DNA of 64,000 nt from the NCBI RefSeq assembly GCF_003387155.1, contig NZ_QUMT01000002.1, forward strand, positions 439,694 through 503,693, written 5' to 3'. The number at the start of each line of letters is the position of its first letter. Position 1 is the stretch's first letter. Under the pieces are notes generated by a model that saw nothing but the letters and a program-made list of their open reading frames with translations, ran no database searches and was not told the DNA's origin. This DNA comes from Roseateles depolymerans (GTDB lineage Bacteria > Pseudomonadota > Gammaproteobacteria > Burkholderiales > Burkholderiaceae_C). The position numbers and the translations under genes are program-made. Positions 6,107 through 36,092 of the stretch are shown here, piece after piece.

Positions 6107-8785
6107 TCAGACCATCGGCGGGTCCGTCTCGCGCTCAAACGGACGATGCTGGCCGATGGCAGTGACGAAGGTACTCAGCACATCGCCGTCCACATCGCCC
6201 TGGCCATCGGCATCCAGGAAGAACAGACCCGGATCGCCGCCGCCTTCTTCCGCCGTGCCCGGCGCGCCCGTGGCTGCCAGCAGCGCACTGCCGCTGCCCA
6301 GCACCAGGATCGGCTTGCAATGCCGGTACAGGTCCTGCACGAAGCTCACCGCCTGGCCGGAGATGGACAGGTTGGGGCGCTCGGCCGATTCATCCGGCAG
6401 CACGACCGCATCCCACAAGGCGCCCGGCGCGGTCTCCAGGGTGATCTCCACCTGCATCGGGTCGCCGCTGGCCGGCTGCACGTCGCCCAGACGGTGGCCG
6501 ATCAGGCGCGGCACGCCGCCGGCCTTCAGGATGGCCGTATGCACCGCGCGGATGGCCGCACCGTCCACGCCCTGATGCACCAGCAGCGCGACCCGACGGC
6601 CATTGAGCGCGCCGTCCCCTGGACGCGCCAGCAGCGACAGCGCCGGCGACTGGGTCACCTCCGGCGGCTGCACCGAGCCTTCCACGCCGGCGCCGACCTC
6701 GCTGCCGGGCGCAAAGTCCGGCAACGGTGGCGGCACCTCCATGCCCAGCCCGTCGGCCACGCGCTGCACCAGGGTGGCATCGATCCGGGCCAGCAGCGCC
6801 AGCACCCGCTGACGGATGGCCGGCGTCTGCACGCGGGTCAATTCAAAGCGGTAGGCGCCCACGATGTGGTTCTGCTCCGCCTCGCTCTGGCTGTTCCAGA
6901 ACAACCGGGCCTGGTTGTAGTGCTCCGCAAAGCGCTCCGGCTTGCCGCGCAGCGCTTCGCCCTGGATGGCCTTGGGATAGGACACAAAGCCGCTGCGCCC
7001 CGCCTGGAAGGGGCAGCCGCCGCCCAGCGAATTGGGCTCATAAGCCACCCGACCGCGCGGAATGGCCTGGCGGTGCAGGCCGTCGCGCTGGTTATTGTGG
7101 ATCTGCGTGACCGGCGCGTTGATGGGAATCTCGTGGAAATTCGGGCCGCCCAGGCGGGTGATCTGGGTGTCCACATACGAGTGGATGCGGCCGGCCAGCA
7201 GCGGGTCGTTGGTGAAGTCCAGCCCCGGGATGATGTGGGCGGTGCAGAAGGCCACCTGCTCGGTCTCGGCGAAGAAGTTGTCCGGATTGCGGGTCAGCAC
7301 CATGCGGCCGACCGGGCGCAGCGGCACCAGTTCTTCCGGCACCAGCTTGGTCGCATCCAGGATGTCGAAGGACCATTGCTCGGCCTGCTCTTCGGTGAAG
7401 ACCTGCAGGCTCAGCTCCCATTCGGGATAGTTGCCGGCCTCGATGGCTTCCCACAGGTCGCGGCGGTGGAAGTCGGAATCCGCGCCGGAGATCTTCACCG
7501 CTTCGTCCCACACCAGCGAATGGGTGCCGGCCTTGGGCGTCCAGTGGAACTTGACGAAATGGGCCTCGCCGTTGGCATTGATCATCCGGAAGGTGTGCAC
7601 GCCGAAGCCCTGCATCATCCGGTAGCTGCGGGGAATGGCCCGGTCGGACATGGCCCACATCAGCATGTGGGCCGATTCGGGCATCAGCGACACGAAGTCC
7701 CAGAAGGTGTCGTGGGCGCTGGCAGCCTGCGGCATGCCGTGGTGCGGCTCGGGCTTGACGGCGTGGATCAGGTCCGGGAACTTCATCGCATCCTGGATGA
7801 AGAACACCGGGATGTTGTTGCCCACCAGGTCCCAGTTGCCTTCGTCGGTATAGAACTTGACGGCAAAGCCGCGCACGTCCCGCGCGGTGTCGGTCGATCC
7901 GCGTTCGCCCGCCACGGTGGAGAAGCGAACGAAGACCGGCGTGCGCTTGCCGGCGGCCGCAAAGGGCGCGGCGACGGTCAGGTCATCCAGCGCTTCGTAG
8001 CTCTCGAAATAGCCGTGGGCGGCGGAGCCGCGTGCATGGACCACCCGTTCCGGGATGCGTTCATGGTCGAAGTGGGTGATCTTCTCGCGGAGGATGAAGT
8101 CCTCCATCAGCGTCGGACCGCGCAAGCCGGCCTTGAGCGAGTTCTGGTTGTCGGCGACACGCACGCCTTGGTTGGTGGTCAGCGCCTGGCCGCTCGAGTC
8201 CACCCGCACGCGGTCCAGGGCTTCATTGGTCGGGTTGTAGCTCAGCTCCGGCATGCCGTCGCCGACCTTGTCGGAGGCGAAGTCCTCGGTGACGGTGCTG
8301 CCGGAGACGATGTCGTCGGGGCTGTCGACCGTCGTGCCTTGGGGCGGCGACACGGCGTTGTCACGGCCATGTTCGGCCGCCTTGTTCTCGTTGGAGGGAA
8401 TGGCCGCGGCCAGGGATTCCGTGCCGCTCATTTTGCGGGCCAGCCGCACTTGCGACTCGGTGGCGGCGGCGCTGGTGACCAGTTCGCTGCGGGCCGGGCC
8501 GGCAATGGTGCTCATGGCCGAGCCCAGGCCTTCGTCAGGCGGGCCCGGGGGCAGGGCGGTGGTGGTGGTGGACTTGCCGCCACGGGCCGGCGACTTGGTG
8601 GCCGCTGCGCTGCGTGAGGGGGCCGCACCGCCGGCGGACTTGGCAGGGGCCTTGCTGCTGGCGGCGGCCTTGGCGTCTGCCTTGGCGGGGGTCTTGGCGC
8701 TTGCAGTGCTGGATGCGGATGACTCGGTCTTGCGGGCAGGCGCGGTGCCGCTGGCGGCGCTAGGCGCGGGTTTCTTGGTGGGCAT
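6107..8785 (-). CDS. katE: Large-subunit monofunctional catalase, HPII/KatE type
   Basis: An 892-residue haem catalase that converts hydrogen peroxide to water and oxygen. The catalytic His lies in [12 protein letters not shown] (about residue 250), and the haem-ligand Tyr in [18 protein letters not shown] (about residue 537). After the core, residues ~700-892 form the DJ-1/PfpI-like C-terminal domain typical of large (clade 2) catalases. The first ~90 residues are a disordered Ala/Lys/Ser/Pro-rich tail resembling histone H1-like tails, longer than in E. coli HPII (753 residues overall). Start ATG 8783-8785 has GAGGA five bases upstream; a longer reading frame to 9007 has no ribosome-binding site. 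A strong terminator follows. The partner DUF6496 gene is divergent. Confidence 0.97.
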
Positions 8786-12992: not shown

Positions 12993-15173
12993 ATGATTCG
13001 AAGCAGGGATGTTTTGCAGCGCGCGTGCCCGAATGCGGCCATGGCGACGGCCGTGGCAACCGCTGTGGCCACGCTGATGGGACTCAGTGGCGCAGCCGTC
13101 GCGCAGTCCCAGACGCCGCCAGCCGCCGTGCTCCCCGCCGTGGTCGTCACCGGCAGCGTCTCCGAACGCGCGCTGGAAGCCGCCCCGTACGCCGCTTCCG
13201 TCCTGGACGCCGACACTCTGCGCCAATCCGGCCCGATGGTGAATCTGTCCGAGGCCCTGGTCCGCGTGCCAGGCATCACCGCCAACAACCGCCAGAATTA
13301 CGCCCAGGACCTGCAGCTCTCCTCGCGCGGCTTCGGCGCCCGCGCGCCCTTTGGCGTGCGCGGCCTGCGGCTCTACACCGACGGCATTCCGGCCACCATG
13401 CCGGACGGCCAGGGCCAGGTCTCCCACTTCGACATTGCCTCGGCGCAGCGCGTGGAAGTGGTGCGCGGCCCGTTCACGGCCTTGTACGGCAACAGCTCGG
13501 GCGGCGTCATCGCCGCCTTCACCGCACCGGTCACCCAGGCCGGTGCCGACCTGTCCCTGGATGCCGGCGCGGACGGCCTGCGCCAGGGCCGCGTCAGCAT
13601 CGGCGCGCCGCTGGGCAGCGGCTGGGACGGGCAGGCCAGCCTGAGCGGCCTGCATATCGACGGCTTCCGTCCGCAGAGCGAGGCCCATCGCACGCTGGCC
13701 ACCGGCCGACTGGCCTGGTCCGGCGAATCGGACCGGCTGGTGCTGCTGCTCAACACCTTCCGCCAGAACGCCCAGGACCCGCTGGGCCTGACCCGCGCGC
13801 AATGGCAGCAGGACCCGGACCAGACCACGCCGCAGGCGATCCAGTTCAACACCCGCAAGGAAGCCAGCCAGACCCAGCTGGGCGGACGCTGGACCCATCG
13901 CTTCGACGCCGCCAGCCCGCTGTCCAGCAGCAGCCTGATGGCCTACACCGGCTGGCGCAGCGTGACCCAGTGGCAGTCGATCACCGTCGGTGCCCAGTCG
14001 GCCGCGGGCAGTGGGGGCGGCGTGGTCGACGTGGACCGCCGCTATGACGGTGTGGATGGCCGCCTGGTGTGGCGCCTGGCCGGCGGGTCCCTGGCCACCG
14101 GCGTGAACCTGGAACGGCAGCGGGACGACCGGCAGGGCTTCCAGAATTTCATCGGCACGGGCGCCGCCCAGCAACTGGGCGTGACCGGCGCTTTGCGGCG
14201 CGACGAGGACAACCGCGCCACCACCCGAGAGGCCTATGCCCAATGGGACGGCGCGCTCACCTCCACGCTGGACGCGATGGTGGGCGTGCGCGGCGGCGAG
14301 GTGCGCATGTCCGCGCAGGACCGTTTTCTCAGCAATGGCGACGATTCCGGCGCGCGCCGCTTCCGCTACGCCAATCCGGCCGTGGGCCTGGGCTGGCGCC
14401 TGACGCCCGCGCTGCTGCTGCATGCGGCGGTTGGCCGGGGCTTCGAGTCGCCCGCCTTGAACGAGCTGGCCTACCGCTCGGACGGCACGGGTGGCTTCAA
14501 CACCGCCCTGAAGGCGCAGAAGAGCCAGCAGCAGGAACTGGGGCTGAAGTGGCGGGGCGAGCGGGCCTCGCTGGATGCCACGCTCTTTCACATCGGCACC
14601 CGCGACGAGATTGCCGTGCTGACCAACAGCGGCGGCCGCTCCAGCTACCAGAACGTTGGCCGCACGCGGCGCAGCGGGGCAGAGCTGTCCGGTGACTGGC
14701 GTCCGGCCGCTGCCTGGCGCCTGGCCGGAACGCTCAGCACCCTGACCGCACGCTACCGCGACAGCTTCGTCACCTGCACCGGCACGCCTTGTCCCACGCC
14801 GACGGTGGCGGTGCCCTCCGGCATGCGCATTGCGGGCACCAACGGCGGCAGCGCCTTTGTGGAACTGGCCTGGAAGCCCCCCGTGTGGCGCGGCGGCGAA
14901 GCCGCGCTGGAGTGGCGTGGCGTGAAGAAAACGGCGGTCAACGACACCAACAGCGAGTTCGCGCCGGGGTACGGGCTGATGCACTTGCGGCTCACCCAAG
15001 ACGGACAGGCGAGCGTGGGCCGCTGGACCTGGACGGCGCGTGTGGAGAACCTGATGGACCGCCGGTATGTGGGCAGCGTCATCGTGAACGATGGCAATGG
15101 CCGCTTCTATGAACCCGCGCCGGGGCGCACCTGGTGGCTGGGCCTGAAGCTGGCCACGACGCTTGGCTCCTGA
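12993..15173 (+). CDS. TonB-dependent outer-membrane receptor, YncD/PqqU-like
   Basis: A 726-residue outer-membrane receptor: signal peptide (residues ~1-38, ending GAAVAQ), TonB box region (VVVTGS), plug domain (about residues 50-165) and a 22-strand barrel ending in an aromatic-rich C-terminus. Plug motifs NRQNYAQDLQLSSRGFGAR and LYTDGIPATMPDGQGQ, and the barrel motifs VGSVIVND and YEPAPGR, closely recall E. coli YncD, renamed PqqU after it was shown to import PQQ (recollection of published work). A PQQ-type dehydrogenase gene lies nearby. Start ATG 12993 has AGAGG at about 12980-12984. A siderophore role remains possible because the family is broad; no iron-regulatory box was recognised upstream. 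Confidence 0.88.
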   Translation: MIRSRDVLQRACPNAAMATAVATAVATLMGLSGAAVAQSQTPPAAVLPAVVVTGSVSERALEAAPYAASVLDADTLRQSGPMVNLSEALVRVPGITANNRQNYAQDLQLSSRGFGARAPFGVRGLRLYTDGIPATMPDGQGQVSHFDIASAQRVEVVRGPFTALYGNSSGGVIAAFTAPVTQAGADLSLDAGADGLRQGRVSIGAPLGSGWDGQASLSGLHIDGFRPQSEAHRTLATGRLAWSGESDRLVLLLNTFRQNAQDPLGLTRAQWQQDPDQTTPQAIQFNTRKEASQTQLGGRWTHRFDAASPLSSSSLMAYTGWRSVTQWQSITVGAQSAAGSGGGVVDVDRRYDGVDGRLVWRLAGGSLATGVNLERQRDDRQGFQNFIGTGAAQQLGVTGALRRDEDNRATTREAYAQWDGALTSTLDAMVGVRGGEVRMSAQDRFLSNGDDSGARRFRYANPAVGLGWRLTPALLLHAAVGRGFESPALNELAYRSDGTGGFNTALKAQKSQQQELGLKWRGERASLDATLFHIGTRDEIAVLTNSGGRSSYQNVGRTRRSGAELSGDWRPAAAWRLAGTLSTLTARYRDSFVTCTGTPCPTPTVAVPSGMRIAGTNGGSAFVELAWKPPVWRGGEAALEWRGVKKTAVNDTNSEFAPGYGLMHLRLTQDGQASVGRWTWTARVENLMDRRYVGSVIVNDGNGRFYEPAPGRTWWLGLKLATTLGS

Positions 15174-15195: not shown

Positions 15196-17166
15196 TCAGG
15201 CGCTCTGCGTCAGCTGCTCCATCATCCGCAGCAGCTGCTGCGGACGCAGCGGCTTGCTGAGATGGGCATCAAACCCGGCCTGCAGTGCCTGCTGTCGGTC
15301 CAGGTCGCGGGAGAAGGCCGTCAGCGCAATCGCCGGCAGGCGTCGCCCCGCAGCTTCGCGCTGCCGCAGCTCGCGGATCAGCTCGTAGCCGTCCTTGCCG
15401 GGCATGCCCACGTCGCTGATGAGCAGGTCGAAATGCGTGCGCGCCAGGGTGGCCAGCGCGTCATCGGCGGACTGCACCAGCGTCACGCGGATGTCGCGCT
15501 CACCCAGGATCAGGCGCAGCATCGAACCCGCATCGGCATCGTCGTCCACCAGCAGCACCTTCAGGCCCGCCAGCCCGGCGGCATTGGTGGTCTCCGGGCC
15601 CTCGGCGGGGCCCAGCAGGCCGGCACCGGTGTCCGGACCCTCCGCCGGCTGCGAGGCATCGGCGCCCGGCAGCCAGAAGGCGATGCGGGCGCCCAGGCCG
15701 GGCCCGTCGCTGTGCACCTGCACCCAGCCGCCATGCGCCTCCACCAGGCTCTTCACGATGGCCAGGCCCAGTCCCAGGCCCCCGTGCTGGCGGTTGCTGG
15801 AGGCGTCACTCTGGGTGAAACGGTCAAAGATGTAGGGCAGGAACTCGGGGTCGATGCCCTGGCCCTGGTCGCGCACCTCGATCAGCGCGCCGCCGTCCTG
15901 CGCCCGCAGCGTGAGCGTGATGGTGCTGCCCTTGGGCGAGAACTTCGCGGCATTGCCCACCAGGTTCCAGATCACCTGCTGCACCCGGCCGCTGTCGGCC
16001 ATGAGCAGCAGATGCTCGTCCTGCAGATCCAGCTCCAGCGTATGGCCGCCGGCCTGCACCCCCGCCTGCACGGCCGAGACGGCCGCCCGCACGATGGCGC
16101 CGGCTTCCTCCACCTCCCGGCTCAGCGGCAGCTTGCCGACATTCAGCCGCGACATGTCCAGGATGTCGGAAATCATCCGCGCCTGGATGCTGACGTTGCG
16201 CTCGATGGCGGTCAGGCCCTTGCTGAGCAGCTCCGGCGGGCTGTGGCGCTGCAGCACATGGGCCCAGCCCATGATGGCATTGAGCGGCGTGCGCAGCTCG
16301 TGGGAGAGCACGGCGATCAGGTCGTCCTTGAGGCGGCTCAGCCGTTCGGCCTCGCTGCGGGCGGTGCGTTCGCGGTCCAGCATGGCCTGCCGCTGCTGCA
16401 CCAGTTGCTGCTGGTGCGACACATCCATGGCCATCACCATGCCCACGCCGGGCTCGACCGGCGGGGAGGTGGTCCACTCCACCGTCACCGCATCCCCGGA
16501 CGGGGTGAGCAGCGAGAACTGGGCCCGGTGGCCGCTGTCCTCAAGCTGCTGGAAAAACTGCAGGGCCACTGGCCGGTCCGCCGGGGCCACGAAGTCCAGC
16601 ATCGGCTGGCCCACCACCTCGGCGCTGCTGCGCTCCAGCAAGGCCAGCATGGCGGGGTTGGCGTCCAGCACGGCGCCGTCGCTGGCCTGCAGCAGGCAGA
16701 TGCCGCTGGGCGCCTGGGCATACACGGTGCGGAACTTCACCTCGCTCGCCCGCATTGCCGCCTCGGCGGCCTGGGTGCGCACCAGCGCCTGGATGGTGGA
16801 CACCAGCACCGCCGGTTCGACCGGATGGGTCAGGTAGGCGTCCGCGCCGGCATCCAGGCCACGCACCTTGTCCTCATCGGACAGGTAGGCGGCGGTCAGG
16901 TGGATCACCGGCAGACGGAAGGTGATGTTGCGGGCGCGCAGCCGGCGGCACAGCTCGAAACCGTCGATGTCCGGCAGGTGGATGTCGAGCACCACCGCCG
17001 AGATGCCCCGGTCGGCAATCTCCAGGGCCTGGGCGCCGGTGGCGGCTTCCTCGGTCGGGAAGCCGGCGGCATTGAGCAGGCGCACGGTGGTGTAGCGGCC
17101 GACCGGGTCGTCGTTGACCACCAGCAGCCGGTGCTGGGAGCGATCGATGGCCCGAGGCTCGTTCAT
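15196..17166 (-). CDS. Hybrid histidine kinase, REC-PAS-HisKA-HATPase-REC
   Basis: A 656-residue cytosolic kinase, last gene of the stressosome operon. The N-terminal receiver (residues ~12-130) has the acidic pair, Asp61 and Thr91, but the invariant Lys is replaced by His114 (LTHPVEP). A PAS domain (~135-250) has the pattern FRTVYAQAPSGICLLQASDG. HisKA carries the phospho-accepting His289 in VLSHELRTP, followed by an intact ATPase domain (NLVGNAAKF, RDQGQGIDP, GGLGLGLAI) and a normal C-terminal receiver (LLVDDDADAG, LISDVGMPG, LTAF, LSKPLR). It overlaps the upstream kinase by four bases. The altered first receiver may not switch on phosphorylation in the usual way. Targets are unknown. Confidence 0.95.
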   Translation of the reverse strand: MNEPRAIDRSQHRLLVVNDDPVGRYTTVRLLNAAGFPTEEAATGAQALEIADRGISAVVLDIHLPDIDGFELCRRLRARNITFRLPVIHLTAAYLSDEDKVRGLDAGADAYLTHPVEPAVLVSTIQALVRTQAAEAAMRASEVKFRTVYAQAPSGICLLQASDGAVLDANPAMLALLERSSAEVVGQPMLDFVAPADRPVALQFFQQLEDSGHRAQFSLLTPSGDAVTVEWTTSPPVEPGVGMVMAMDVSHQQQLVQQRQAMLDRERTARSEAERLSRLKDDLIAVLSHELRTPLNAIMGWAHVLQRHSPPELLSKGLTAIERNVSIQARMISDILDMSRLNVGKLPLSREVEEAGAIVRAAVSAVQAGVQAGGHTLELDLQDEHLLLMADSGRVQQVIWNLVGNAAKFSPKGSTITLTLRAQDGGALIEVRDQGQGIDPEFLPYIFDRFTQSDASSNRQHGGLGLGLAIVKSLVEAHGGWVQVHSDGPGLGARIAFWLPGADASQPAEGPDTGAGLLGPAEGPETTNAAGLAGLKVLLVDDDADAGSMLRLILGERDIRVTLVQSADDALATLARTHFDLLISDVGMPGKDGYELIRELRQREAAGRRLPAIALTAFSRDLDRQQALQAGFDAHLSKPLRPQQLLRMMEQLTQSA

Positions 17167-18053
17167 GCGCGCGTTTCTCCGGCGAAGCCAGGGGCCAGCC
17201 GCAGCGGCACCGTCACGGAGAACACCGAGCCCTTGCCCGCCTCGCTCTGCAGCCCCACATGCCCCCCCAGCAGTTCCGCCAGCCGCTTGCTGAGCGACAG
17301 GCCCAGGCCCGTGCCCCGCAGGCGCTTCTGAATGGGCGAATCCAGCTGGATGAAGTCCTGGAAGATGGCGTCGTGGAATTCCGGCGCGATGCCGATGCCG
17401 GTGTCGCTGACCGAGAACACCATGCTCTCGCCTTCCTGCACCGCCGACACCCGGATTTCCCCGTGCTGGGTGAACTTGAGGGCGTTGGAGATGAAGTTGC
17501 GCAGGATCTGCGACAGCTTGCCGTTGTCGGTGAAGAGCTGTCCGGTGCCCACCGGCTCTTCGAAGATCAGCTGCACCTCCGGATTGACCAGCACCGGCTT
17601 GAACATGCCGCGCAGGGCGGCAAACAGATCGACCAGTTCAAACCAGGCCGGAGAGATGTCGATCCGGCCGGCCTCCACCTTCGCCAGGTCGAGCAGGTCG
17701 TTCACCATGTCGGTAAATTCCTCCGACGTGGTGCGGATGAACTGGATCTGTTTTTCCTGCTCCGGCGTCAGCGGCCCGTCCACCCGGTCCAGCAGCAGCC
17801 GGGTGAGGCTGCGGATGGAGGAAATGGGGGTGCGGAACTCATGGCTCATGTAGGCCAGGAAGCGGCTCTTGAGCTCGGTGGCCTGGCGCAGTTGCTGCGC
17901 CTGGGTGTCCAGTTCGGCATACAGCGCCAGCACGCCGCGGTTGGTTTCGTCCAGCTCCATCTGGAGCTCCTGGAGCTGTCGCCGGGTCTGATCCAACTCG
18001 GCCAGGGCCGCACGCAGGGCATCGGGATCTTGATCAGGCAGTGCTTCGGTCAT
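17163..18053 (-). CDS. Histidine kinase of the stressosome operon
   Basis: A 296-residue soluble kinase. An N-terminal coiled coil (residues ~12-60) leads into HisKA with His71 in AYMSHEFRTP and a complete HATPase domain: FISNALKF N-box, SDTGIGIAP and RGTGLGLSLS. It has no transmembrane or separate sensor domain, so input probably comes from a partner such as the Rsb proteins encoded just upstream. The ATG at 18051-18053 follows the phosphatase gene by eight bases, and its stop overlaps the hybrid kinase start. This order (stressosome genes, then phosphatase, then kinase) is known from non-sigmaB stressosome loci in other proteobacteria. Confidence 0.93.
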   Translation of the reverse strand: MTEALPDQDPDALRAALAELDQTRRQLQELQMELDETNRGVLALYAELDTQAQQLRQATELKSRFLAYMSHEFRTPISSIRSLTRLLLDRVDGPLTPEQEKQIQFIRTTSEEFTDMVNDLLDLAKVEAGRIDISPAWFELVDLFAALRGMFKPVLVNPEVQLIFEEPVGTGQLFTDNGKLSQILRNFISNALKFTQHGEIRVSAVQEGESMVFSVSDTGIGIAPEFHDAIFQDFIQLDSPIQKRLRGTGLGLSLSKRLAELLGGHVGLQSEAGKGSVFSVTVPLRLAPGFAGETRA

Positions 18054-18061
18054 CGTTCGGG

Positions 18062-19087
18062 TCAGGCAACAGGGCGGCGGGGCGCCGCGACCACCACGGT
18101 GGCATCGTCGCGGCCGCGGAGGTGGTCCCGCAGAATCCAGGCGGCCACGCAGGCCGGTCCGGCTTGCAGCAGGCCCGGTACATCATCAAGCTTCCAGCGG
18201 CTCTGGATGCCATCTGAATGCAGGACAAGCACCGCATGGGCCGGCCACTCGTAGCGCATGTCCTGCAATCGGCGCACCTGCACCCCCAGCGTGCCATGTT
18301 GGACCAGGAGGCTGCGGTCGACCACCCCCGAGATCAGGCGCCCGCTGACGTTGCCGGCCCCCGACACCACCAGGCTCGGCGTTGTCAGGTCCAGGCAGGC
18401 CAGGGTGACGGCGGCGCCGCGGGTGCTGCGCATCGGGTCATGGGTCCGCTCCAGGATCGATGCGGGAGACGCGGTGCCATCCGGCATCCGGTGCAGCAAA
18501 CTCACCATGAGGTCCGCCGCCTCGGCAGCGTCGGGCCCATGGCCCAGCCCGTCGGCCACCAGCAGCAGGCAGTGGTCCTCCAGCGTCCGCACGGTCCAGG
18601 CATCGCCACTGACCTGCTCGCCGGGAGCGGCCAGGGTCAGGCCGACGATGTCGAAGCCGGGAGTGGGCGGCACGACAGGGCGGCGCTCCGGGGCGTCGGC
18701 CGAGGCGCGGGTGGCGATCACCGTGCCGCGGCCCGGGGCGGAGAAGGCGTCAAAACGCGCCGCCAGCCGCCGGATGGCGCCCAGGCCCGTGCCGGCTGTG
18801 CCGCCGGTGCTGTAGCCGTCCTGCAGGCAGCGGTGCACGTCCATGCCGGGGCCCTGGTCCAGGGACAGCACCTCCACCTGGCCGTCCACGGCCGCCATCA
18901 GCAGCGCGGCCTGCCGGCCGGGGCCGACATGGCGGTGCAGGTTGGTGCCCAGCTCGGTGACCATCAGGGCCAGCCGTCCGCAGGCCTCGGGGTCGAAGCC
19001 CAGGCCGCCCGCCAGATGCAGGGCCGCCCGGCGCGCTTCGCCCACCTGGCTGACGTCCTCGATGGGAAAACGCAGATGCGGCTGCAT
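18062..19087 (-). CDS. Anti-sigma-type ATPase fused to an RsbX/SpoIIE-like PP2C phosphatase
   Basis: A 341-residue two-domain protein. Residues ~1-135 form a GHKL ATPase like RsbT/RsbW (TELGTNLHRHV, LDQGPGMDV, AGTGLGAIRR). Residues ~150-341 are a PP2C/SpoIIE phosphatase with metal-binding aspartates in VSGDAW, VADGLGHG, LHSDGIQ and GRDDATVVV. In stressosomes RsbX-type phosphatases remove phosphate from RsbR and RsbS and so reset the complex. Here the extra ATPase domain could add a kinase or partner-binding activity. It starts three bases after the rsbT stop and is tightly packed in the operon. The opposing activities joined in one chain are seen in the sequence; how they balance is inference. 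Confidence 0.92.
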   Translation of the reverse strand: MQPHLRFPIEDVSQVGEARRAALHLAGGLGFDPEACGRLALMVTELGTNLHRHVGPGRQAALLMAAVDGQVEVLSLDQGPGMDVHRCLQDGYSTGGTAGTGLGAIRRLAARFDAFSAPGRGTVIATRASADAPERRPVVPPTPGFDIVGLTLAAPGEQVSGDAWTVRTLEDHCLLLVADGLGHGPDAAEAADLMVSLLHRMPDGTASPASILERTHDPMRSTRGAAVTLACLDLTTPSLVVSGAGNVSGRLISGVVDRSLLVQHGTLGVQVRRLQDMRYEWPAHAVLVLHSDGIQSRWKLDDVPGLLQAGPACVAAWILRDHLRGRDDATVVVAAPRRPVA

Positions 19088-19090
19088 CGC

Positions 19091-19525
19091 CTATTTCCAG
19101 CGGGTGATGGTGACCCGTGTGCCCTGGCCAGGCGCCGTCTCGAGCTCGAAGTCGTTCACCAGCCGCTTGCTGCCGGACAGGCCCATGCCCAGGCCGCCGC
19201 CGGAGGTCCAGCCGTCCTTGAGCGCCAGGTCGATGTCGGCAATGCCGGGGCCCTGGTCCACGAAGGACAGCCGCAGGCCCTGGCGCAGGCCGTTTTGGAC
19301 CAACTGCCACAACATGTCGCCGCCGCCCCCGTAGATGAGGGTGTTGCGGGACAGCTCGCTGGCCGCGGTGATCATCTTGGTCTGGTCGACCAGGCTGAAC
19401 TTGAGCTGCTGCGTGAGCCGGCGCACCTGCTGGCGGGCCAGCACGATGTCCGCCTCGCTGCGGATGGGCATCTGGCCCTGTTCGGACTCAGTCGACATCG
19501 TGGTGATCGCGGTCATGGCCGTCAT
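19091..19525 (-). CDS. rsbT: RsbT-like switch serine kinase
   Basis: A 144-residue GHKL-fold protein kinase that phosphorylates RsbR and RsbS in the stressosome and is then released to act on a downstream partner. The N-box (ASELSRNTLIYG), G1 (DQGPGI) and G2 (GLGMGLSGSKRL) are intact. Start ATG 19523-19525 is chosen because GAGGAG lies seven bases ahead; it overlaps the rsbS 3' end by 38 bases, and later in-frame ATGs exist. In Bacillus the freed RsbT activates RsbU and then sigmaB; neither is present here, so the partner must be another protein, possibly the neighbouring phosphatase or kinases (inference). Confidence 0.93.
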   Translation of the reverse strand: MTAMTAITTMSTESEQGQMPIRSEADIVLARQQVRRLTQQLKFSLVDQTKMITAASELSRNTLIYGGGGDMLWQLVQNGLRQGLRLSFVDQGPGIADIDLALKDGWTSGGGLGMGLSGSKRLVNDFELETAPGQGTRVTITRWK

Positions 19526-19889
19526 GGAACTGCTCCTCGTCCGTTGCCTTGAGCAGCTGCAGGCCGCGTTCCACATTCAGGGCGGTCCGCACGCCGTCCA
19601 GCGACAGTCCCAGCTCCACCAGGGTGATGGCCACCGCCGGCTGCATGCCCACCACCACGGTGGTGGCGCCCAGCACCCTGGCAATGCCGGAAATGCTGGC
19701 CAGCATGCGGCCGATGAAGGAATCGACGATTTCCATGGCGGAGATGTCGATCAGCACACCGGTGGCGCTGGAGGACTGGATCTTGTTGGCCAGGTCGTCC
19801 TGGAGCGCCAGGGCGGTCTGGTCCTGCAGGTCGACCTGGATGGTCACCAGCAGGGTCCGGCCCATTTGCAGGATGGGGATGCGCTGCAT
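19488..19889 (-). CDS. rsbS: RsbS-like STAS scaffold of the stressosome
   Basis: A 133-residue single STAS-domain protein. The signature GVLIDISAMEIVDSFIGRML contains the Ser (in IVDS) that matches the RsbT phosphorylation site of RsbS, with the usual Asp before it. RsbS forms the stressosome core with RsbR and holds RsbT until phosphorylated. The C-terminus is a short His/Asp-rich tail (FHDGHDRDHHDVD) not typical of RsbS; it is encoded where rsbT overlaps, so it may be a by-product of that overlap. Three bases separate it from rsbR. Confidence 0.93.
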   Translation of the reverse strand: MQRIPILQMGRTLLVTIQVDLQDQTALALQDDLANKIQSSSATGVLIDISAMEIVDSFIGRMLASISGIARVLGATTVVVGMQPAVAITLVELGLSLDGVRTALNVERGLQLLKATDEEQFHDGHDRDHHDVD

Positions 19890-19892
19890 GGC

Positions 19893-20774
19893 TCAGTCCA
19901 TCCGGCCGGAGACGACTTCCGCGGCGCCGCGGTTGCGGGTGATCACGTACCCGGTGCGGCGCAGGGCCAGCGACAGGGCGTCGGCCAGCGACGCCTTGGT
20001 GGTGATGCCTTCCAGATCGATCCCCAGGTGCACGATGGTCTGGGCGATCTGCGGACGGATGCCGCTGATGATGCAGTCCGCCCCCATCAGGCGGATGGCG
20101 GTGACGGTCTTCATCAGATGCTGGGCGACCAGCGTATCCACCGTGGGCACGCCGGTGATGTCGATGATGGCCAGCGCAGAGCCCGTCTCAACGATGCGCT
20201 CCAGCAGCGCTTCCATGACGATCTGGGTGCGACCGCTGTCCAGCGTGCCGATCATGGGCACGGCCAGCACGCCCTCCCAGAGCTTGACCACCGGCGTGGA
20301 CAGCTCCAGCAGGTCCTGCTGCTGGCGGGCGATGATGTCTTCGCGGGTGCGCTGGTAGGCGGACACCGTGTGCTGGGCCATGGCGTCCAGCAGGGTGGAG
20401 ACCTCCCAGGTGGCGGCGAAGAGCAGGTCCGGCTGGCTGCTGAAGGCGCGCTGCAGGCCGCCGAACAGCGGCTTCTTGAGGGCCAGCACGAAGCGGCTGG
20501 TGTCCGCGGCGGTCGCCCCTTGGGCCGCGCGGGAGGCGGACAGGCGGGCCAGCAGGTCGCGCAGGCGGGACCAGCCGGCGGCGTCCAGGTCCGTCAGGCC
20601 GCCGCTGGCGCGCAGGCCGGCCAGCAGCGCCTCCAGCAGTTCGCTGGTTTCGCGGCTGTCGCTGTGCAGGTCACGGCCGCCCCCGGTGGCGCGGAGTTCC
20701 GCCTGCCATTCGGACAGGACCTGTTCCTTGTGATGGGCCAGCAGGTCTTCAACCGCAACGCTGTGTGGATTCAT
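19893..20774 (-). CDS. rsbR: RsbR-like stressosome sensor
   Basis: A 293-residue protein: residues ~1-150 are a helical, non-haem-globin-like sensory domain, and ~158-280 a STAS domain. The two Thr positions phosphorylated by RsbT in Bacillus RsbR are kept: Thr177 in MIGTLDSGR and a Thr in IDITGVPTVDT (207 or 211). The conserved stretch SGIRPQIAQTIVHLGID is typical of RsbR. The start ATG 20772-20774 has GAGGA just upstream. It is the first gene of the six-gene leftward operon. The N-terminal turret domain normally sets which stress is sensed; its ligand cannot be told from sequence. Confidence 0.94.
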   Translation of the reverse strand: MNPHSVAVEDLLAHHKEQVLSEWQAELRATGGGRDLHSDSRETSELLEALLAGLRASGGLTDLDAAGWSRLRDLLARLSASRAAQGATAADTSRFVLALKKPLFGGLQRAFSSQPDLLFAATWEVSTLLDAMAQHTVSAYQRTREDIIARQQQDLLELSTPVVKLWEGVLAVPMIGTLDSGRTQIVMEALLERIVETGSALAIIDITGVPTVDTLVAQHLMKTVTAIRLMGADCIISGIRPQIAQTIVHLGIDLEGITTKASLADALSLALRRTGYVITRNRGAAEVVSGRMD

Positions 20775-20905
20775 GGATTCCTCGGGTGGACTGGGGGAAC
20801 GGAGAGGGCGACACAATGCGTGTCAAAGGGGAGGCGGCGGCATATTAACCCTGCCTTGGAGGACTGCCGACCCTACAGTGGGGGCCTTGTTGTCCCTGAG
20901 GGGGG

Positions 20906-20920
20906 TGGCACGCCGTTTGC
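20906..20920 (+). promoter_or_regulatory. Sigma54 (RpoN)-type -24/-12 promoter
   Basis: TGGCACGCCGTTTGC matches the RpoN consensus TGGCACG-N4-TTGC exactly, with the GG and GC dinucleotides twelve bases apart. It lies 42 bases before the receiver-kinase gene start, so transcription would begin near 20932. An enhancer-binding activator would be needed; none is encoded in the window. Confidence 0.7.
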
Positions 20921-20961
20921 CCATCTGGATTTGGCGGTGGCCTACCGCACAAGACTGACGA

Positions 20962-22155
20962 ATGATGAAGATGCTGATCGACTGGGAGACAGAAGTGGCG
21001 CAAGAGCAGACCCCCGGCACCAACGCCGGGGCGGCGGACGTGTCGCCACGGCGGCCAATGAATGTGCTGGTGGTGGACGACAAGCCGCAGAATCTGCTGG
21101 CCATGAAAGCCTTGCTGGGAGATGGCCTGGAGCCGGACCTGCAGGTGCTGACGGCGGATTCGGGGCCGGCCGCCCTGGAACTGCTGCTGGAACACGAAGT
21201 CATGCTGGCCTTGCTGGATGTGCAGATGCCAGGCATGGATGGCTTCACCTTGGCAGAACTGATGCGGGGCACGGAACGTACCCGGCATGTGCCCATCATC
21301 TTCCTGACCGCCGGGGCCCGGGAAGCGCAGCGCAGCTTCAAGGGCTATGAGGCGGGGGCGGTGGACTTCATCTACAAGCCGGTGGACGCCCATGTCATGC
21401 GCAGCAAGGTGGCGGTTTTTGCCGACCTGCATCGCCAGCGCCAGTTGCTGGCCGAACGGATCGAGGCCCAGGAGCGCCTGGCCCGGGTCAATGCGCTGAT
21501 GCTGAGCGCACTCTCCCATGACATCCGCGGCCCGCTGTCCGTGATGATGCTCAATGCCGAACTGCTGATCCGCCAGGCGGACCAGCCGGTGCTGCAAAAG
21601 GCCGGCGCCCGCATGAAGGCGGCTGCCACGCTGCTGGGTCGCCAGGTGGACCATCTGGGCAGCCTGGCCCAGCGCCCGTGCGAGCTGCTGGAAGTGCATC
21701 CGCGCCGGGGCGACCTGGCCGCGCTGACGGCCCAGCGGCTGGACCTGGAGAGCAACCAGGCCGTGCTGTGGGCGCCGCCGAGCTTCGAGCGCATCGGCGA
21801 CACCGCCGGGGACTTCGACGCGGAGGCGCTGGCCCGTGCCATCGACCAGCTGTTGATGCAGGCCGCCACCCATGCCGGCGATGCCCCCATCCGCATCCAG
21901 GTGGACGGCAGTGCCCACCGGTCGCTGATGCTGCGGCTGAGCTTTGACACGGTGCTGTCGGCCGAAGCTTCCATCCATCTGTTCGGCGGCCATGAGCCGG
22001 TCTCCGGCATGGCCTCGCCCCATGTGGGGCCGGGCCTGGAAGAGCCGGAGCGGGTGGCCCGCGCCCATGGCGGCTCCCTGATCGGTGGCTCCCGGCAGCG
22101 TCAGGGTACGCTGCTCGAGCTGCTGCTGCCCCGCCACCAGGCCGATCGCCCCTGA
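20962..22155 (+). CDS. Receiver-histidine kinase fusion with degenerate ATPase domain
   Basis: A 397-residue cytosolic protein. The N-terminal receiver (~33-150) is complete: VVDDKPQN, phospho-acceptor Asp in LLDVQMPGMDG, LTAGA and the Lys in YKPVD. It is followed by HisKA with His186 in ALSHDIRGPL. The ATPase region (~255-395) lacks the N-box asparagines (QLLMQAATHA) and a DxGxG motif, keeping only HGG and GTLLELLLP-like ends. It may thus be a kinase-dead phosphatase or scaffold, or need a partner's ATPase. It is divergent from the stressosome operon and has an RpoN-type promoter. ATG 20962 is used; 20965 is equally possible, as no clear ribosome-binding site helps. Confidence 0.88.
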   Translation: MMKMLIDWETEVAQEQTPGTNAGAADVSPRRPMNVLVVDDKPQNLLAMKALLGDGLEPDLQVLTADSGPAALELLLEHEVMLALLDVQMPGMDGFTLAELMRGTERTRHVPIIFLTAGAREAQRSFKGYEAGAVDFIYKPVDAHVMRSKVAVFADLHRQRQLLAERIEAQERLARVNALMLSALSHDIRGPLSVMMLNAELLIRQADQPVLQKAGARMKAAATLLGRQVDHLGSLAQRPCELLEVHPRRGDLAALTAQRLDLESNQAVLWAPPSFERIGDTAGDFDAEALARAIDQLLMQAATHAGDAPIRIQVDGSAHRSLMLRLSFDTVLSAEASIHLFGGHEPVSGMASPHVGPGLEEPERVARAHGGSLIGGSRQRQGTLLELLLPRHQADRP

Positions 22156-22244
22156 CGCTTCCACTGGCTTCCCCCATCGCGCACCGGCCGGACGAAACCG
22201 GCCAGAATGCGCCCCCTCATGGCTGAACGGCTTTCTTGACTCCC

Positions 22245-25200
22245 ATGACCACCTCCTCTTCGGCTTCGACCCCGGACCTGGCCCTCCACCGGATCCGATG
22301 GCTGCCGGCACCCACGATGCTGGGCTTTGCCCTGGCCATCCTGACGATCTTCATGACGGCCTTCATGTCCTGGCGCTCCCAGCAGGAGCAGTCGGCCACC
22401 GCCGATGCCATGGCCAGTACGCTGGTCGTGCAGGAACAGATCCAGGCGCTGGGCTCGGCGATCAAGGATGCAGAGACCGGCCAGCGGGGTTATCTGCTGA
22501 CCGGCGTGGACACTTATCTGCTGCCGTTCAACACCGCCCAGGTGGTGCTGCCGCTGGCAGTGCAGCGTCTTCGGGTGAGCTGGGCGGACAACCCGCCGCA
22601 GCTGGCCCGGCTGGATACGGTGGAGATGCTCTACAAGACCAAGCTCACCGAAATGCAGGAGACCATCGACCTTCGCCGTCGTGGGGACCGCATCGATGCG
22701 CTCAACACCGTGCAGGGCGACCGCGGCCGCATCCTGATGGACCGCATCCGCACGCTGCTGGGCGAGATGGAGCGCGAGGAGCGCGAACGCGCCGCCAACC
22801 GGCGGTCCACCTGGGACGCTGCCGTGCTGCAGACCCAGGCGATGCTCTGGGGCGGCTCGGCGCTGCTGCTGGTGCTGGTGCTGGTGGCCCTGGTGCTGAC
22901 CATCCGCAACTATCGAGCCACCAAGGCCGAGGACTGGATCAAGGCGGGTAAATCCCAGCTGGTCGCGCAAATGCAGGGAGATCCGCGCATCGAGCGTCTG
23001 GGTGAAATCGTGGTGAGTGCGCTGGCCCGGTACACCCAGGCGCAGGTTGGCGCTTTTTATGTCGCCCAGGAAGACGGAAGCTTTGAGCGAGTCGCTGGCT
23101 ACGCTTTGCCCACCGGCGATGCCGCCCCGCCGCTGGTGCGCAGTGGCGACAGTTTGCTGGGCCAGGCCGTCAAGGACCGGCGCACGGTGCACCTGAAGAA
23201 TCTTCCGAAGGACTACTTCAATGTGGCCTCCAGCCTGGGGAAGTCCAACTCGCGTGAGGTGCTGATTGGACCTTCCGGCATCGATGGCGGCATTCAGTGC
23301 GTGGTCGAACTGGGCTACTTGCGCGAAGTGGGAGAACACGAGCGTGAGCTCTTGACCCGCGCCGGGGAGTTCATCGCCATGGCCCTTCGCTCGGCCAAGG
23401 ACCGCAGCCGTCTGGAACAACTGCTGGAAGAAAGCCGTCGCCAGTCCGAGGAACTGCAGGCTCAGCAGGAAGAACTGCGCGCCAGCAATGAAGAGCTGGA
23501 AGAGCAGGGCCGCGCCCTGCGTGAATCGCAGCTGCGGCTGGAGCATCAACAGACCGAGCTGGAGCAGAGCAATGCCCAGCTGGAAGAGCAGGCCAAGCAG
23601 CTGGAGCTGCAGCGCTCCGAGCTGGAGAGTGCCCAGGGGCTGCTGACGGAGCGGGCGGATGCGCTGGAGCGGTCCAACCAGTACAAGAGCGAGTTCCTGG
23701 CCAACATGAGCCACGAGCTGCGCACCCCGCTGAACTCCACCCTGATCCTGGCCAAGCTGCTGGCCGACAACAAGGACGGCAACCTGAGCTCCGAACAGGT
23801 GCGTTTTGCCGAGACCATCACCTCGGCCGGCAACGACCTGCTGGCGCTGATCAACGACATCCTGGACCTGTCCAAGATCGAGGCCGGCAAGGTGGAGGTT
23901 CAGATCGAGCGGGTGCCGGTGCCGCGCCTGCTGCAGCAGTTGACGCAGACCTTCGCGCCCATCGCCGCACAGCGCCATCTGGCCTTCGGCCTGAACCTGC
24001 AGCCGGGCGCGCCCGACTGGCTGGAAACCGACGAAGGCCGCATCAGCCAGGTGCTGAAGAACCTGCTGTCCAACGCCCTGAAGTTCACCGAGAAGGGCTC
24101 GGTGCGGATGGAAGTGGGCGGCACCGCGGACGGCCGCCTGGTGTTTGCGGTGAAGGACACCGGCATCGGCATCGCGCCGGAACATCAGGACCAGATCTTC
24201 GAGGCTTTCCGCCAGGCCGATGGCAGCACCCACCGCAAATATGGCGGCACGGGGCTGGGCTTGTCGATCTCGCGGGACCTGGCCCGTCTGCTGGGCGGGG
24301 ACATCTATCTGGAAAGCAGCCCGGGCCTGGGCAGCACCTTCAGCCTGGTGTTGCCGCAGAAGCATGTGGCGCCGGCGCAGAGCGACTCGCCGCGTTCGCT
24401 GCCGCCGGCCCAGGCACCTTCGCCCGCCCGCTCGCCAGTGATGGCGCCGCCCGCCATGGTGCCGGCCATCAGCGCGGTGGCGACGGGGACCCTGGCAGGG
24501 GGAAGTGGCGGCGAAGGCGACATCCCGAGCCGTCCCGCCCCCGCCACCCACGAAGCGCGTCTGCCGCAGCTCGACGACGACCGCCTGCGCTGGGTGCCGG
24601 GTGCCCGCTCCATCCTGGTGATCGAGGATGACGAGCGCTTTGCCGCCATCCTGCGGGACCTGATCCGCGAAATGGGCTTCCTGTGCCTGATGGCCCACAC
24701 CGCGGAAAACGGCCTTGCGGTCGCGCAGCGGTATGCGCCCAGCGCCATCCTGCTGGACATGAACCTGCCGGACCATTCGGGCCTGGGCGTGCTGGATCGC
24801 CTCAAGCGCGACCCGCTGACCCGTCACATCCCCGTGCATGTGGCCTCGGTGGAAGATTACAGCCATGAGGCCCTGGAGCGCGGTGCCATCGGCTATGCGC
24901 TCAAGCCGGTCAAGCGCGACGAGCTCGAGCATGCGCTGCAGCGGCTGGAGGCCAAGTTCTCGCAGCGCATGCGCCGCGTGCTGGTGGTGGAAGACGACGC
25001 CCGCCAGCTCGACAGCATCCGCCACCTGCTGGCGGCCGATGATGTGCAGATCCAGGGCGTGGCCACCGCGGCCGAGGCGCTGGAAGCCCTGCGCAGCACC
25101 ACCTTCGACTGCATGGTGATGGACCTGCATCTGCCGGACATGAGTGGCTTCGACCTGCTGGACCAGATGGCCCTGCAGGACGAGGTGGCCTTCCCGCCGG

Positions 25201-25808
25201 TGATCGTCTACACCGGCCACAACCTCTCGCCGGTGCAGGAGACGCAGCTGCGCCGCTATTCCCGCTCCATCATCATCAAGGGCGCCCGGTCGCCCGAGCG
25301 GCTGCTGGACGAGGTGACGCTGTTCCTCCACCAGGTGGAAGCGCAGCTGCCGCCGGAGCGTCAGCGCATGCTCAAGGAGGTGAGGGCGCGCGACAACATG
25401 CTGGAAGGCCGTCGCATCCTGGTGGTGGAAGACGATGTGCGCAACATCTTTGCGCTGTCGGCCGTGCTGGAGCCCAAGGGTGTGAAGGTGGAAATCGCCC
25501 GCAATGGCCGCGAGGCGCTGGAGCGGCTGGCCCAGTCGTCCGGCCCCGGACCGGGCGAGGGCGGCAACAAGCCACCGATCGACCTGGTGCTGATGGACAT
25601 CATGATGCCGGAGATGGACGGCTTCACCGCCATGCGGGCCATCCGCGAGCGGCCGGACTGGCGCCGCCTGCCGATCATCGCGCTCACGGCCAAGGCGATG
25701 AAGGACGACCAGGAGAAGTGCATGGCCGCGGGGGCGAATGACTACATCGCCAAGCCGCTGGACGTGGAAAAGCTGCTCTCCCTGGTGCGGGTCTGGATGC
25801 CGCGCTGA
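22245..25808 (+). CDS. Large hybrid histidine kinase: CHASE3-GAF-HisKA-HATPase-REC-REC-REC
   Basis: A 1187-residue inner-membrane kinase. Membrane helices at ~25-43 and ~200-218 flank a periplasmic CHASE3 domain (KDAETGQRGYLLTG). A GAF domain (~240-375), a long Gln/Glu-rich coiled coil (~380-480), HisKA with His490 in NMSHELRTP and an intact ATPase domain (LLSNALKFTEKG, KDTGIGIAP, GGTGLGLSIS) follow. After a Pro/Ala linker come three receivers starting near 789, 911 and 1057, with phospho-Asp in LLDMNLPD, VMDLHLPD and LMDIMMPE. ATG 22245 is preferred over an upstream TTG at 22236. The gene is followed with a one-base overlap by cheR, a pairing often seen for kinase/CheR signalling loci. Signal and output are unknown. 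Confidence 0.95.
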   Translation: MTTSSSASTPDLALHRIRWLPAPTMLGFALAILTIFMTAFMSWRSQQEQSATADAMASTLVVQEQIQALGSAIKDAETGQRGYLLTGVDTYLLPFNTAQVVLPLAVQRLRVSWADNPPQLARLDTVEMLYKTKLTEMQETIDLRRRGDRIDALNTVQGDRGRILMDRIRTLLGEMEREERERAANRRSTWDAAVLQTQAMLWGGSALLLVLVLVALVLTIRNYRATKAEDWIKAGKSQLVAQMQGDPRIERLGEIVVSALARYTQAQVGAFYVAQEDGSFERVAGYALPTGDAAPPLVRSGDSLLGQAVKDRRTVHLKNLPKDYFNVASSLGKSNSREVLIGPSGIDGGIQCVVELGYLREVGEHERELLTRAGEFIAMALRSAKDRSRLEQLLEESRRQSEELQAQQEELRASNEELEEQGRALRESQLRLEHQQTELEQSNAQLEEQAKQLELQRSELESAQGLLTERADALERSNQYKSEFLANMSHELRTPLNSTLILAKLLADNKDGNLSSEQVRFAETITSAGNDLLALINDILDLSKIEAGKVEVQIERVPVPRLLQQLTQTFAPIAAQRHLAFGLNLQPGAPDWLETDEGRISQVLKNLLSNALKFTEKGSVRMEVGGTADGRLVFAVKDTGIGIAPEHQDQIFEAFRQADGSTHRKYGGTGLGLSISRDLARLLGGDIYLESSPGLGSTFSLVLPQKHVAPAQSDSPRSLPPAQAPSPARSPVMAPPAMVPAISAVATGTLAGGSGGEGDIPSRPAPATHEARLPQLDDDRLRWVPGARSILVIEDDERFAAILRDLIREMGFLCLMAHTAENGLAVAQRYAPSAILLDMNLPDHSGLGVLDRLKRDPLTRHIPVHVASVEDYSHEALERGAIGYALKPVKRDELEHALQRLEAKFSQRMRRVLVVEDDARQLDSIRHLLAADDVQIQGVATAAEALEALRSTTFDCMVMDLHLPDMSGFDLLDQMALQDEVAFPPVIVYTGHNLSPVQETQLRRYSRSIIIKGARSPERLLDEVTLFLHQVEAQLPPERQRMLKEVRARDNMLEGRRILVVEDDVRNIFALSAVLEPKGVKVEIARNGREALERLAQSSGPGPGEGGNKPPIDLVLMDIMMPEMDGFTAMRAIRERPDWRRLPIIALTAKAMKDDQEKCMAAGANDYIAKPLDVEKLLSLVRVWMPR

Positions 25809-26701
25809 TGGACGAGGGCGGTGTCATGAAGTCCGGGACTGAAGGCGCGTTCGGGGGGCTGCTGGGCGATGACCACCTGCCGGCCCATCCGGAGGTGGAC
25901 ATCGAGGTGCGGTTGATCCTGGAGGCGATCTACCAGCGCTACCACTACGACTTCCGGGATTACGCCCAGACGTCGCTGCGCCGGCGGCTCAAGGCGGCCA
26001 TGCAGCGCTTCGACTGCCCCACGCTGTCCCAGTTGCAGGGGCGCCTGCTGCGGGAGGGCGAAGTCTTCCGCTCGGTCCTGAAGGACCTGACGGTGCAGGT
26101 CAGCGAGATGTTCCGCGACCCGGAGTACTTCCGGGCCCTGCGCGAGCAGGTGGTGCCGGTGCTGCGCACCTATCCGTCCCTCAAGATCTGGGTGGCGGGC
26201 TGCAGCAGCGGGGAGGAGGCGTATTCGCTGGCCATCCTGATGAAAGAAGAAGGGCTGCTGGAGCGCACCCTGATCTACGCGACCGACATCAGCCAGGAAG
26301 CGCTGATGCAGGCCCAGGCCGGTGTCTACCGGATCGACCTGGTGCCTGGCTTCACCGAAAACCATCGTCTCTCGGGCGGCAAGGGCTCGCTGTCGGAGCA
26401 CTACACCGCGGCTTATGACCACATCCTGCTGGACAAGGCGCTGAAGGAGCGCATCGTCTTCAGCGACCACAGTCTGTCCACCGACAGCGTGTTTGCGGAG
26501 GTGCAGCTGGTGTCCTGCCGCAATGTCCTGATCTATTTCAACCGGGCGCTGCAGGACCGGGCTTTCGGGCTGTTCAGCGAGGCCCTGTGCCGCAATGGCT
26601 TCCTGGGGCTGGGCGCACGGGAGACCCTTCGGTTCTCGGCGCATGCCGGGGATTTCAACGAAGTGGCGCCGCACGAGCGGATCTACCAGCGCAAGGGGTA
26701 G
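25808..26701 (+). CDS. CheR-type protein-glutamate methyltransferase
   Basis: A 297-residue SAM-dependent methyltransferase. The N-terminal helical CheR_N domain (YDFRDYAQTSLRRRLKAAM) is followed by the SAM-binding motif VAGCSSGEEAYSLAI, ATDISQEAL and VSCRNVLIYFN. CheR methylates glutamates of chemoreceptors, but here no chemoreceptor, CheA, CheW or CheB is near. Methylation may instead act on the CHASE3/GAF kinase or its coiled coil (inference). The ATG at 25808 shares its A with the kinase stop TGA, indicating translational coupling. The frame has no downstream CheB partner, which differs from many similar loci. Confidence 0.92.
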   Translation: MDEGGVMKSGTEGAFGGLLGDDHLPAHPEVDIEVRLILEAIYQRYHYDFRDYAQTSLRRRLKAAMQRFDCPTLSQLQGRLLREGEVFRSVLKDLTVQVSEMFRDPEYFRALREQVVPVLRTYPSLKIWVAGCSSGEEAYSLAILMKEEGLLERTLIYATDISQEALMQAQAGVYRIDLVPGFTENHRLSGGKGSLSEHYTAAYDHILLDKALKERIVFSDHSLSTDSVFAEVQLVSCRNVLIYFNRALQDRAFGLFSEALCRNGFLGLGARETLRFSAHAGDFNEVAPHERIYQRKG

Positions 26702-34161: not shown

Positions 34162-34212
34162 GCGCCCGGGTGCGCTGAGGAAAAATATTAAAATTGAAAG
34201 AGGGAAAATGTC

Positions 34213-34797: not shown

Positions 34798-34864
34798 CAA
34801 AATCTTGGCTTTGAGTCACAAAGATTTGCGAGTTGTCGATGAGCCCTTTTTGTAGAGATTAGTG

Positions 34865-35827: not shown

Positions 35828-36092
35828 AAGTTGAATGCGAAAGACAATGACTGATACGAAAACCCTGTCATTGACGACATATCAAACGCGCAGGCCTCAT
35901 CAAGACCAGGAGCCTCCCGAGCGGCCAAGGTCCCTCAAACCTTCCAATAGCCCAGCCGCTTCGGCCAACTCCCGCCTGCATCAAGGCTGATCGCCCCTGG
36001 AGCGGCCTCGGTGTATCCACCCCGCACACCCCTCCGCCTCAGGCAGGTTCAAGGGCTGGCATCATGCGGGTTTTGCAATTCCAAGGATCACC

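Follow-up and report, generated by a model that had tools for sequence, protein, structure and literature searches.

A 64,000-nucleotide stretch of the Roseateles depolymerans genome (contig NZ_QUMT01000002.1; hereafter the window) carries a six-gene run on its minus strand, from 20774 to 15196, whose reading frames and Pfam domains give the order rsbR-rsbS-rsbT-X-K1-K2, X being an ATPase-phosphatase fusion and K1 and K2 histidine kinases (Table 1). The reading we tentatively prefer, with slightly less than even confidence, is a stressosome with an RsbR/RsbS core, RsbT as its kinase and a two-component output, in which an RsbT-type domain would act on a helix of K1. The window's K1 has probably lost an RsbT-like input domain found in relatives. 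A first-pass annotation made from the letters alone had listed rsbR, rsbS, rsbT, an ATPase-PP2C fusion and two kinases with gaps or overlaps of a few bases, and this layout held, no gap exceeding 8 bases: successive junctions measure +3 (rsbR/rsbS), about -11 (rsbS/rsbT), +3 (rsbT/X), +8 (X/K1) and -4 bases (K1/K2).

The comparison set comprised 34 loci (the window plus L037-L044, L046, L057-L064 and L086-L101), each with RsbR, RsbS, RsbT and X. These were chosen by similarity to X, with K1 defined as the gene directly after X, so the set does not measure how frequent the ATPase-PP2C fusion is, the fusion being present by construction. The loci span Pseudomonadota, Nitrospirota, Acidobacteriota and Verrucomicrobiota. 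Across the 34, rsbR-S-T-X recurs in this order, with the qualification that L063 encodes rsbR on the opposite strand, and in 29 of them the gene after K1 is a REC-first K2. As the order recurs across loci, the arrangement with kinases is not a chance one.

By sequence, the first three genes are an RsbRST module, with the two phospho-Thr positions of RsbR, the phospho-Ser position of RsbS and the ATP site of RsbT all present. In alignments to solved structures, Thr214 and Thr246 of RsbR and Ser57 of RsbS fall on the phosphosite motifs of the respective protein, which makes these three residues candidate phosphosites. They replace Thr177, which had been proposed earlier as the RsbR phosphosite. 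The Thr214 equivalent is kept in 34/34 loci and the Thr246 equivalent in 33/34, the exception being L063, which is cut by its reading frame; the RsbS column holds Ser in 33 loci and Thr in one. The RsbT N-box, G1 and G2 are intact in all 34, and a sequence search of RsbT against PDB returned nothing at E 0.01. In L063, a metagenome-assembled genome (MAG), the RsbR frame (7045-8112) runs opposite to rsbS, rsbT and X, and its STAS match is cut short.

Pfam finds no sensor domain in the window's K1, as the first-pass annotation had stated. Sixteen of the 34 loci encode a K1 with an N-terminal RsbT-like ATPase domain whose N-box and G1 are intact, the G2 loop being altered in two of these (L063, L064). 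The domain is degenerate in four loci (L040, L042 and L043 are without the N-box Asn, G1 and G2; L062 has a remnant only, spotted by eye and missed by the domain model) and absent from 14, namely 13 kinases like the window's and L100, where a PAS-GGDEF-EAL protein occupies the K1 position. When the RsbR-STAS, RsbS, RsbT and X domains are joined for tree building, the 13 domain-less loci fall into one clade (support 100/98). In a tree of the ATPase domains (128 columns, midpoint root, weak inner forks, the three degenerate K1 domains left out), the X ATPases form one clade (100/98) and the K1 domains another (98/95), the latter on the RsbT side; RsbT is not strictly one clade, the L099 copy falling outside and monophyly appearing in 8% of bootstrap trees. 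The simplest reading would be three old ATPase paralogues, one loss in the window's clade, as suggested by the single clade of 13 domain-less kinase genes together with degenerate copies elsewhere, and separate decay in two other lineages. K1 would then look 'sensorless' by loss, because the domain-less K1s form one clade and their relatives carry the RsbT-like domain. The earlier remark that the lack of a sensor domain fits external control was thus right about the absence, and its wording needs amending to a probable loss.

Just N-terminal of HisKA lies a helix signature, E-L-[DE]-[DE]-T-N-R-G-V-x-A-L-Y-A-E-L (short form ETNRGVxALYAELD), which reads ETNRGVLALYAEL in the window and occurs in some form in 31/34 loci, Arg being replaced by Gln or Lys in some. 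In the L061 kinase as modelled by AlphaFold2 (6 rows; mean predicted local distance difference test score (pLDDT) 80.6, predicted template modelling score (pTM) 0.48), one continuous helix, residues 160-246, links the RsbT-like domain to the HisKA region. Within K1, conservation is highest in the signature helix, also after domain loss: pairwise identity in the domain-less clade is 84% in the 20-residue helix, 67% in the catalytic part and 35% in the stretch before the helix (9 of 13 loci), and the corresponding values in loci with the domain are 78%, 51% and 44% (12 of 16 loci). Among 300 genomes of the order, ten helix-model matches exceed 96 bits and no other exceeds 43; these ten genomes are the ones with complete X, and all ten were used to build the model. 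Among 398 genomes of the phylum, 17 matches reach at least 49.6 bits, and the 17 genomes concerned are precisely those where X scores 6e-103 or better; 13 of these genomes played no part in model building. Eight more genomes with weaker X (4e-86 or worse) gave no helix match at 1e-8, and a further three, weaker matches (38 to 43 bits) are located elsewhere, one of these on a paralogue. The RsbT-like domain also heads the kinase of L087 and L088, where the helix is kept and the H-box reads as NtrB-like, and a HisKA_2 kinase in L099; placed ahead of these other outputs, it behaves like an exchangeable input module. The PAS-GGDEF-EAL protein of L100 (10267-12426) has a related-looking helix, SSQGLIAITLELE, at its N-terminus.

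Phosphorylation of RsbR and RsbS by RsbT and its reversal by RsbX are established for stressosomes (excerpts of PMC9237108), and RsbT acts on the coiled-coil linker of RsbU (excerpts of PMC12143880). In the mechanism we propose, RsbT and X would set the phosphorylation state of RsbR and RsbS, and the signal would be relayed to K1 by an RsbT-type ATPase domain that acts on the signature helix preceding HisKA. This step is suggested by the K1 fusions, the conservation of the helix and the way in which RsbT is known to act on the RsbU linker. Many relatives would use such a domain in cis, fused to K1; in the window's clade, where the domain would have been lost, RsbT (or the X ATPase domain) would act in trans, in the manner of RsbT ordering the RsbU linker. 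K1 would autophosphorylate on His71 and hand the phosphate on to K2 at its N-terminal REC; the final output is encoded outside the operon. Counting 14 residues from the G1 Asp of the RsbU-activating RsbT, presumably D78, leads to D92, the equivalent of which in the window's RsbT would be the Asp of a KDG motif; this Asp is kept in 32/34 RsbT, 34/34 X domains and 0/16 intact K1 domains. D92 contacts an Arg of the RsbU linker (excerpts of PMC12143880).

Several points weigh against this mechanism. The helix motif is missing in L064 and L099 and variant in L100, and two of these three keep the RsbT-like domain; a constant neighbourhood and a conserved helix would also be expected if the helix only served K1 dimerisation. 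Loss as opposed to gain of the domain is based on remnants and a single domain clade, in trees without an outgroup root. Some lineages have a K1 domain with decayed ATPase motifs, and hence catalysis by it is not always required. A takeover test was negative: RsbT of the domain-less clade has one differing column and the X ATPase of that clade also one, with none in either case towards the lost K1-domain consensus, and a control clade with the K1 domain has nine, four of them towards that consensus; the test is weak because RsbT and the X ATPase offer a single informative column each. Finally, the excerpts of Heinz et al. (PMC9237108) give no positive RsbT-kinase interaction for the Vibrio system. 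The bridge from RsbT or the phosphatase to the kinases drawn in the first-pass annotation therefore stands in part: constant kinase neighbours speak for it, as does the RsbT-like domain on K1 relatives, which ties RsbT-type proteins to a kinase, and the takeover and Vibrio results speak against it.

X carries intact ATPase N-box and G1 motifs in all 34 loci, and its phosphatase residues D162, D179-G180, D292-G293 and D327-D328 are invariant in 18 aligned proteins. The best solved-structure sequence match to its phosphatase domain is PDB 3ZT9 (E 2.8e-13), which we take to be MtX, the stressosome phosphatase of Moorella thermoacetica; that structure is a single phosphatase domain of 193 residues, whereas X carries an ATPase domain too. 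These features suggest that X is bifunctional, combining an RsbT-like kinase with an RsbX-like phosphatase in a single polypeptide, and that it resets or tunes RsbR/RsbS phosphorylation. Sixteen further loci (L047-L054, L102, L103, L105, L113-L117) have X by RsbR, with ATPase motifs intact in 16/16 and no free RsbT found within the stretch covered, which in most cases extends 6 to 10 kb to either side (1.5 kb on one flank of L117), so that an RsbT elsewhere in those genomes is possible; they support the ability of the X ATPase to act as an RsbR kinase. Thirteen of them (L047-L052, L054, L102, L103, L105, L113-L115) are RsbR plus ATPase-PP2C gene pairs with neither a separate RsbS gene nor a free RsbT nearby in the locus stretch. 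Such a pair is possibly a minimal switch.

The same features allow K1 to be under the control of X and not of free RsbT, either because the X ATPase replaces the lost domain or because the X phosphatase acts on Ser/Thr of K1. The K1 gene directly follows X in all 34 loci (which is how K1 was picked), the X ATPase motifs are invariant, X is the sole RsbT-type ATPase found beside RsbR in the stretch examined of the 16 other loci, and kinases follow in two RsbR-X loci (L116, L117). However, the X ATPase is the more distant paralogue, the K1 domain lying on the RsbT side of the tree, and it shows no shift in the domain-less clade (one informative column). We regard control by X as unlikely.

Outside the module there are paralogues of about 490 residues that combine an RsbT-like domain with a diverged helix. 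In two of four paralogue loci, an orphan RsbR gene is divergently adjacent to the RsbT-like-domain histidine kinase (L107, 4740-7243; L108, 3518-6021), with no RsbS, RsbT or X in 10.5 kb around these kinases; no RsbR was found in 10.5 kb at L106, and L109 ends at a contig edge. The pairs at L107 and L108 favour another view, that the RsbT-like domain of K1 is a docking piece holding the kinase on the RsbR/RsbS shell in RsbT's place, and the degenerate motifs in L040, L042 and L043 are compatible with docking without catalysis. After loss of the domain, K1 would be free and would sense through the PAS and REC of K2, the operon link being historical co-expression. Yet the helix is still K1's most conserved part after domain loss, and the middle of K2 varies, L059 and L060 having no room for a PAS between REC and kinase; we give docking little credence, about as much as control by X. 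Phosphorylation of K1 by RsbT on Ser/Thr, as Heinz et al. propose for Vibrio (excerpts of PMC9237108, which report no positive interaction), is improbable: the RsbT ATPase motifs are intact, but the 20 conserved helix residues in the window include two Thr and lack Ser, only the Thr of ETN/DTN is kept, and K1 has no STAS-like substrate domain.

The claim that this stressosome is not wired to SigB found support in searches of the whole genome. RsbU_N (PF08673) has no match there, and among 14 control genomes only B. subtilis matched. Five sigma-factor matches were found, none over the TIGR02980 cut-off for SigB/F/G-type factors. The four STAS matches are RsbR and RsbS, a probable transporter with a frame of 762 residues, and a small protein that reads as MlaB-like; none of the four is RsbV-like. 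SpoIIE occurs in two places, X and what reads as a Ser/Thr phosphatase beside a Hanks-type kinase. A HATPase_c_2 search gave 36 places, 12 of them over the cut-off in frames of at least 342 residues; the best match reads as an ATPase with further parts on both sides, and a small RsbW-like protein could be missed because the search did not list RsbT itself. A SigB/RsbU partner elsewhere in the genome was considered and is unsupported by the RsbU_N, SigB/F/G, STAS and SpoIIE searches.

A structure model of RsbR (8 rows; mean pLDDT 81.0, pTM 0.51) has a Listeria stressosome chain as its best fold match (template modelling score 0.48/0.51). It also weakly matches the globin sensor domain BpeGReg of Bordetella pertussis (E about 0.005, TMt about 0.67), and the N-terminal fold may be globin-like. 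No alignment column of RsbR has His in at least 40% of 33 rows, and because of this haem sensing of the Vibrio kind was judged unlikely.

Gram-negative stressosomes beside two-component proteins, including phosphorelays, are in print (excerpts of PMC9237108 and PMC10014275). The closest described system is RSTX with VvD1/VvD2 of Vibrio vulnificus, which shares rsbR-S-T-X followed by two-component proteins and the lack of SigB, and in which mutants of the RSTX and two-component modules are similar in phenotype (same excerpts). In those excerpts the Vibrio RsbR is a haem globin, whereas the window's RsbR has an RsbRD_N domain and no conserved His column; the RsbX of globin-type clusters is described as a single-domain PP2C, whereas X is fused to an RsbT-like ATPase; and neither an RsbT-like domain nor an ETNRGV helix is mentioned in the passages available. 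With the RsbRST-RsbU-SigB pathway of Bacillus subtilis the module has RsbR, RsbS and RsbT in common, the phosphosite positions and ATPase motifs being conserved, but this genome has no RsbU_N, no SigB over the cut-off and no RsbV-like protein among its four STAS matches. RsbU activation, in which the coiled-coil linker preceding the effector is targeted by an RsbT-type protein, serves as the model for what we propose for K1, and RsbT possibly acting on kinases with RsbU_N has already been proposed (excerpts of PMC12143880); K1, however, has no RsbU_N dimerisation domain, and in its relatives the RsbT-like domain lies within the kinase chain. HsbR/CrsR resembles X in having a GHKL kinase and a PP2C on one chain and one STAS protein as substrate, but its order is REC-PP2C-kinase, whereas X has the GHKL ATPase first, then PP2C, and no REC; its target is the anti-sigma antagonist HsbA, not a stressosome (excerpts of PMC6482189). 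The stressosome of Moorella thermoacetica has a diguanylate cyclase as output (excerpts of PMC4976288 and PMC12143880).

Ranked by identity of X, the closest relatives with a name are a Rubrivivax MAG (88%) and Roseateles terrae (81%). In the class sample, X was found in 22 of 369 genomes at E 1e-30, and at 1e-122 or better only in the window's genome and G608. L045 (genome G293, order sample) has an X fragment without the first 88 residues at a contig end; there is no RsbR, RsbS or RsbT beside it, and elsewhere in G293 there is one weak helix match (36 bits). Among the loci outside the 34-locus set (L045, L047-L056, L065 and L102-L117: an X fragment, single-domain X, RsbR-X pairs, paralogues and one filler stretch), 25 were inspected, all except L110, L111 and L112.

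The rsbT start, about 19498, was set by comparison with 134-residue orthologues, and in-frame ATG codons also lie at 19516 and 19525. A promoter scan of 20750-20990 gave no sigma-70-like site. On the plus strand, a TonB-dependent receptor gene (12993-15173) ends 22 bases from the convergent operon end. Divergent from the operon and also on the plus strand are genes for a REC-HisKA protein without a recognisable HATPase domain (20962-22155) and a CHASE3-GAF-kinase-triple-REC protein (22236-25808), followed by a CheR gene (25808-26701); the first two lie divergent to the operon in L057 and L058 too. Further along the window, 34001-36000 has a G+C content of 0.49 against 0.63-0.67 in adjacent 2-kb steps, with an LprI-domain protein at 34862-35827.

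Table 1 Genes and features of the rsbR-K2 run, in window positions.
Feature	Position	Strand	Content	Evidence
RsbR	19893..20774	-	RsbRD_N globin-like N-terminal domain and STAS	RsbRD_N 1.1e-19, STAS 3.5e-13
RsbS	19488..19889	-	STAS domain, candidate phosphosite Ser57	Pfam and solved-RsbS alignment
RsbT	19091..19498	-	GHKL switch kinase, HATPase_c, N-box/G1/G2 intact	Pfam and motifs
X	18062..19087	-	RsbT-like ATPase domain and RsbX-like PP2C phosphatase, motifs of both intact	HATPase_c_2 3.3e-8, SpoIIE/PP2C 1.1e-12
K1	17163..18053	-	Histidine kinase: signature helix, HisKA (His71), HATPase_c; relatives' RsbT-like N-terminal domain missing	
K1 signature helix	17898..17957	-	ELDETNRGVLALYAELDTQA, residues 33-52	
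K2	15196..17166	-	Hybrid kinase REC-PAS-HisKA-HATPase_c-REC	Pfam

The neighbourhood of stressosome and two-component genes was already known; what is added here is the RsbT-like domain of K1, its probable loss, the helix and the X fusion. Judging by titles, abstract starts and passages, no literature was found that names a histidine kinase with a fused RsbT-like domain, the absence of this domain in a clade, the helix or an ATPase-RsbX fusion. X would be the kinase and the phosphatase for the same switch on one chain, and for a signal route from stressosome to two-component proteins without RsbU, a named domain and a 20-residue stretch are now available as targets. A more far-reaching history, which we consider doubtful, is that the module originally contained three RsbT-type ATPase domains (free, on X and on K1) competing for the RsbR/RsbS sites, and that the window's clade switched from cis to trans, leaving the K1 helix as a target of RsbT. 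If true, the kinase itself was a stressosome client, and Ser/Thr and His/Asp signalling would be joined directly.

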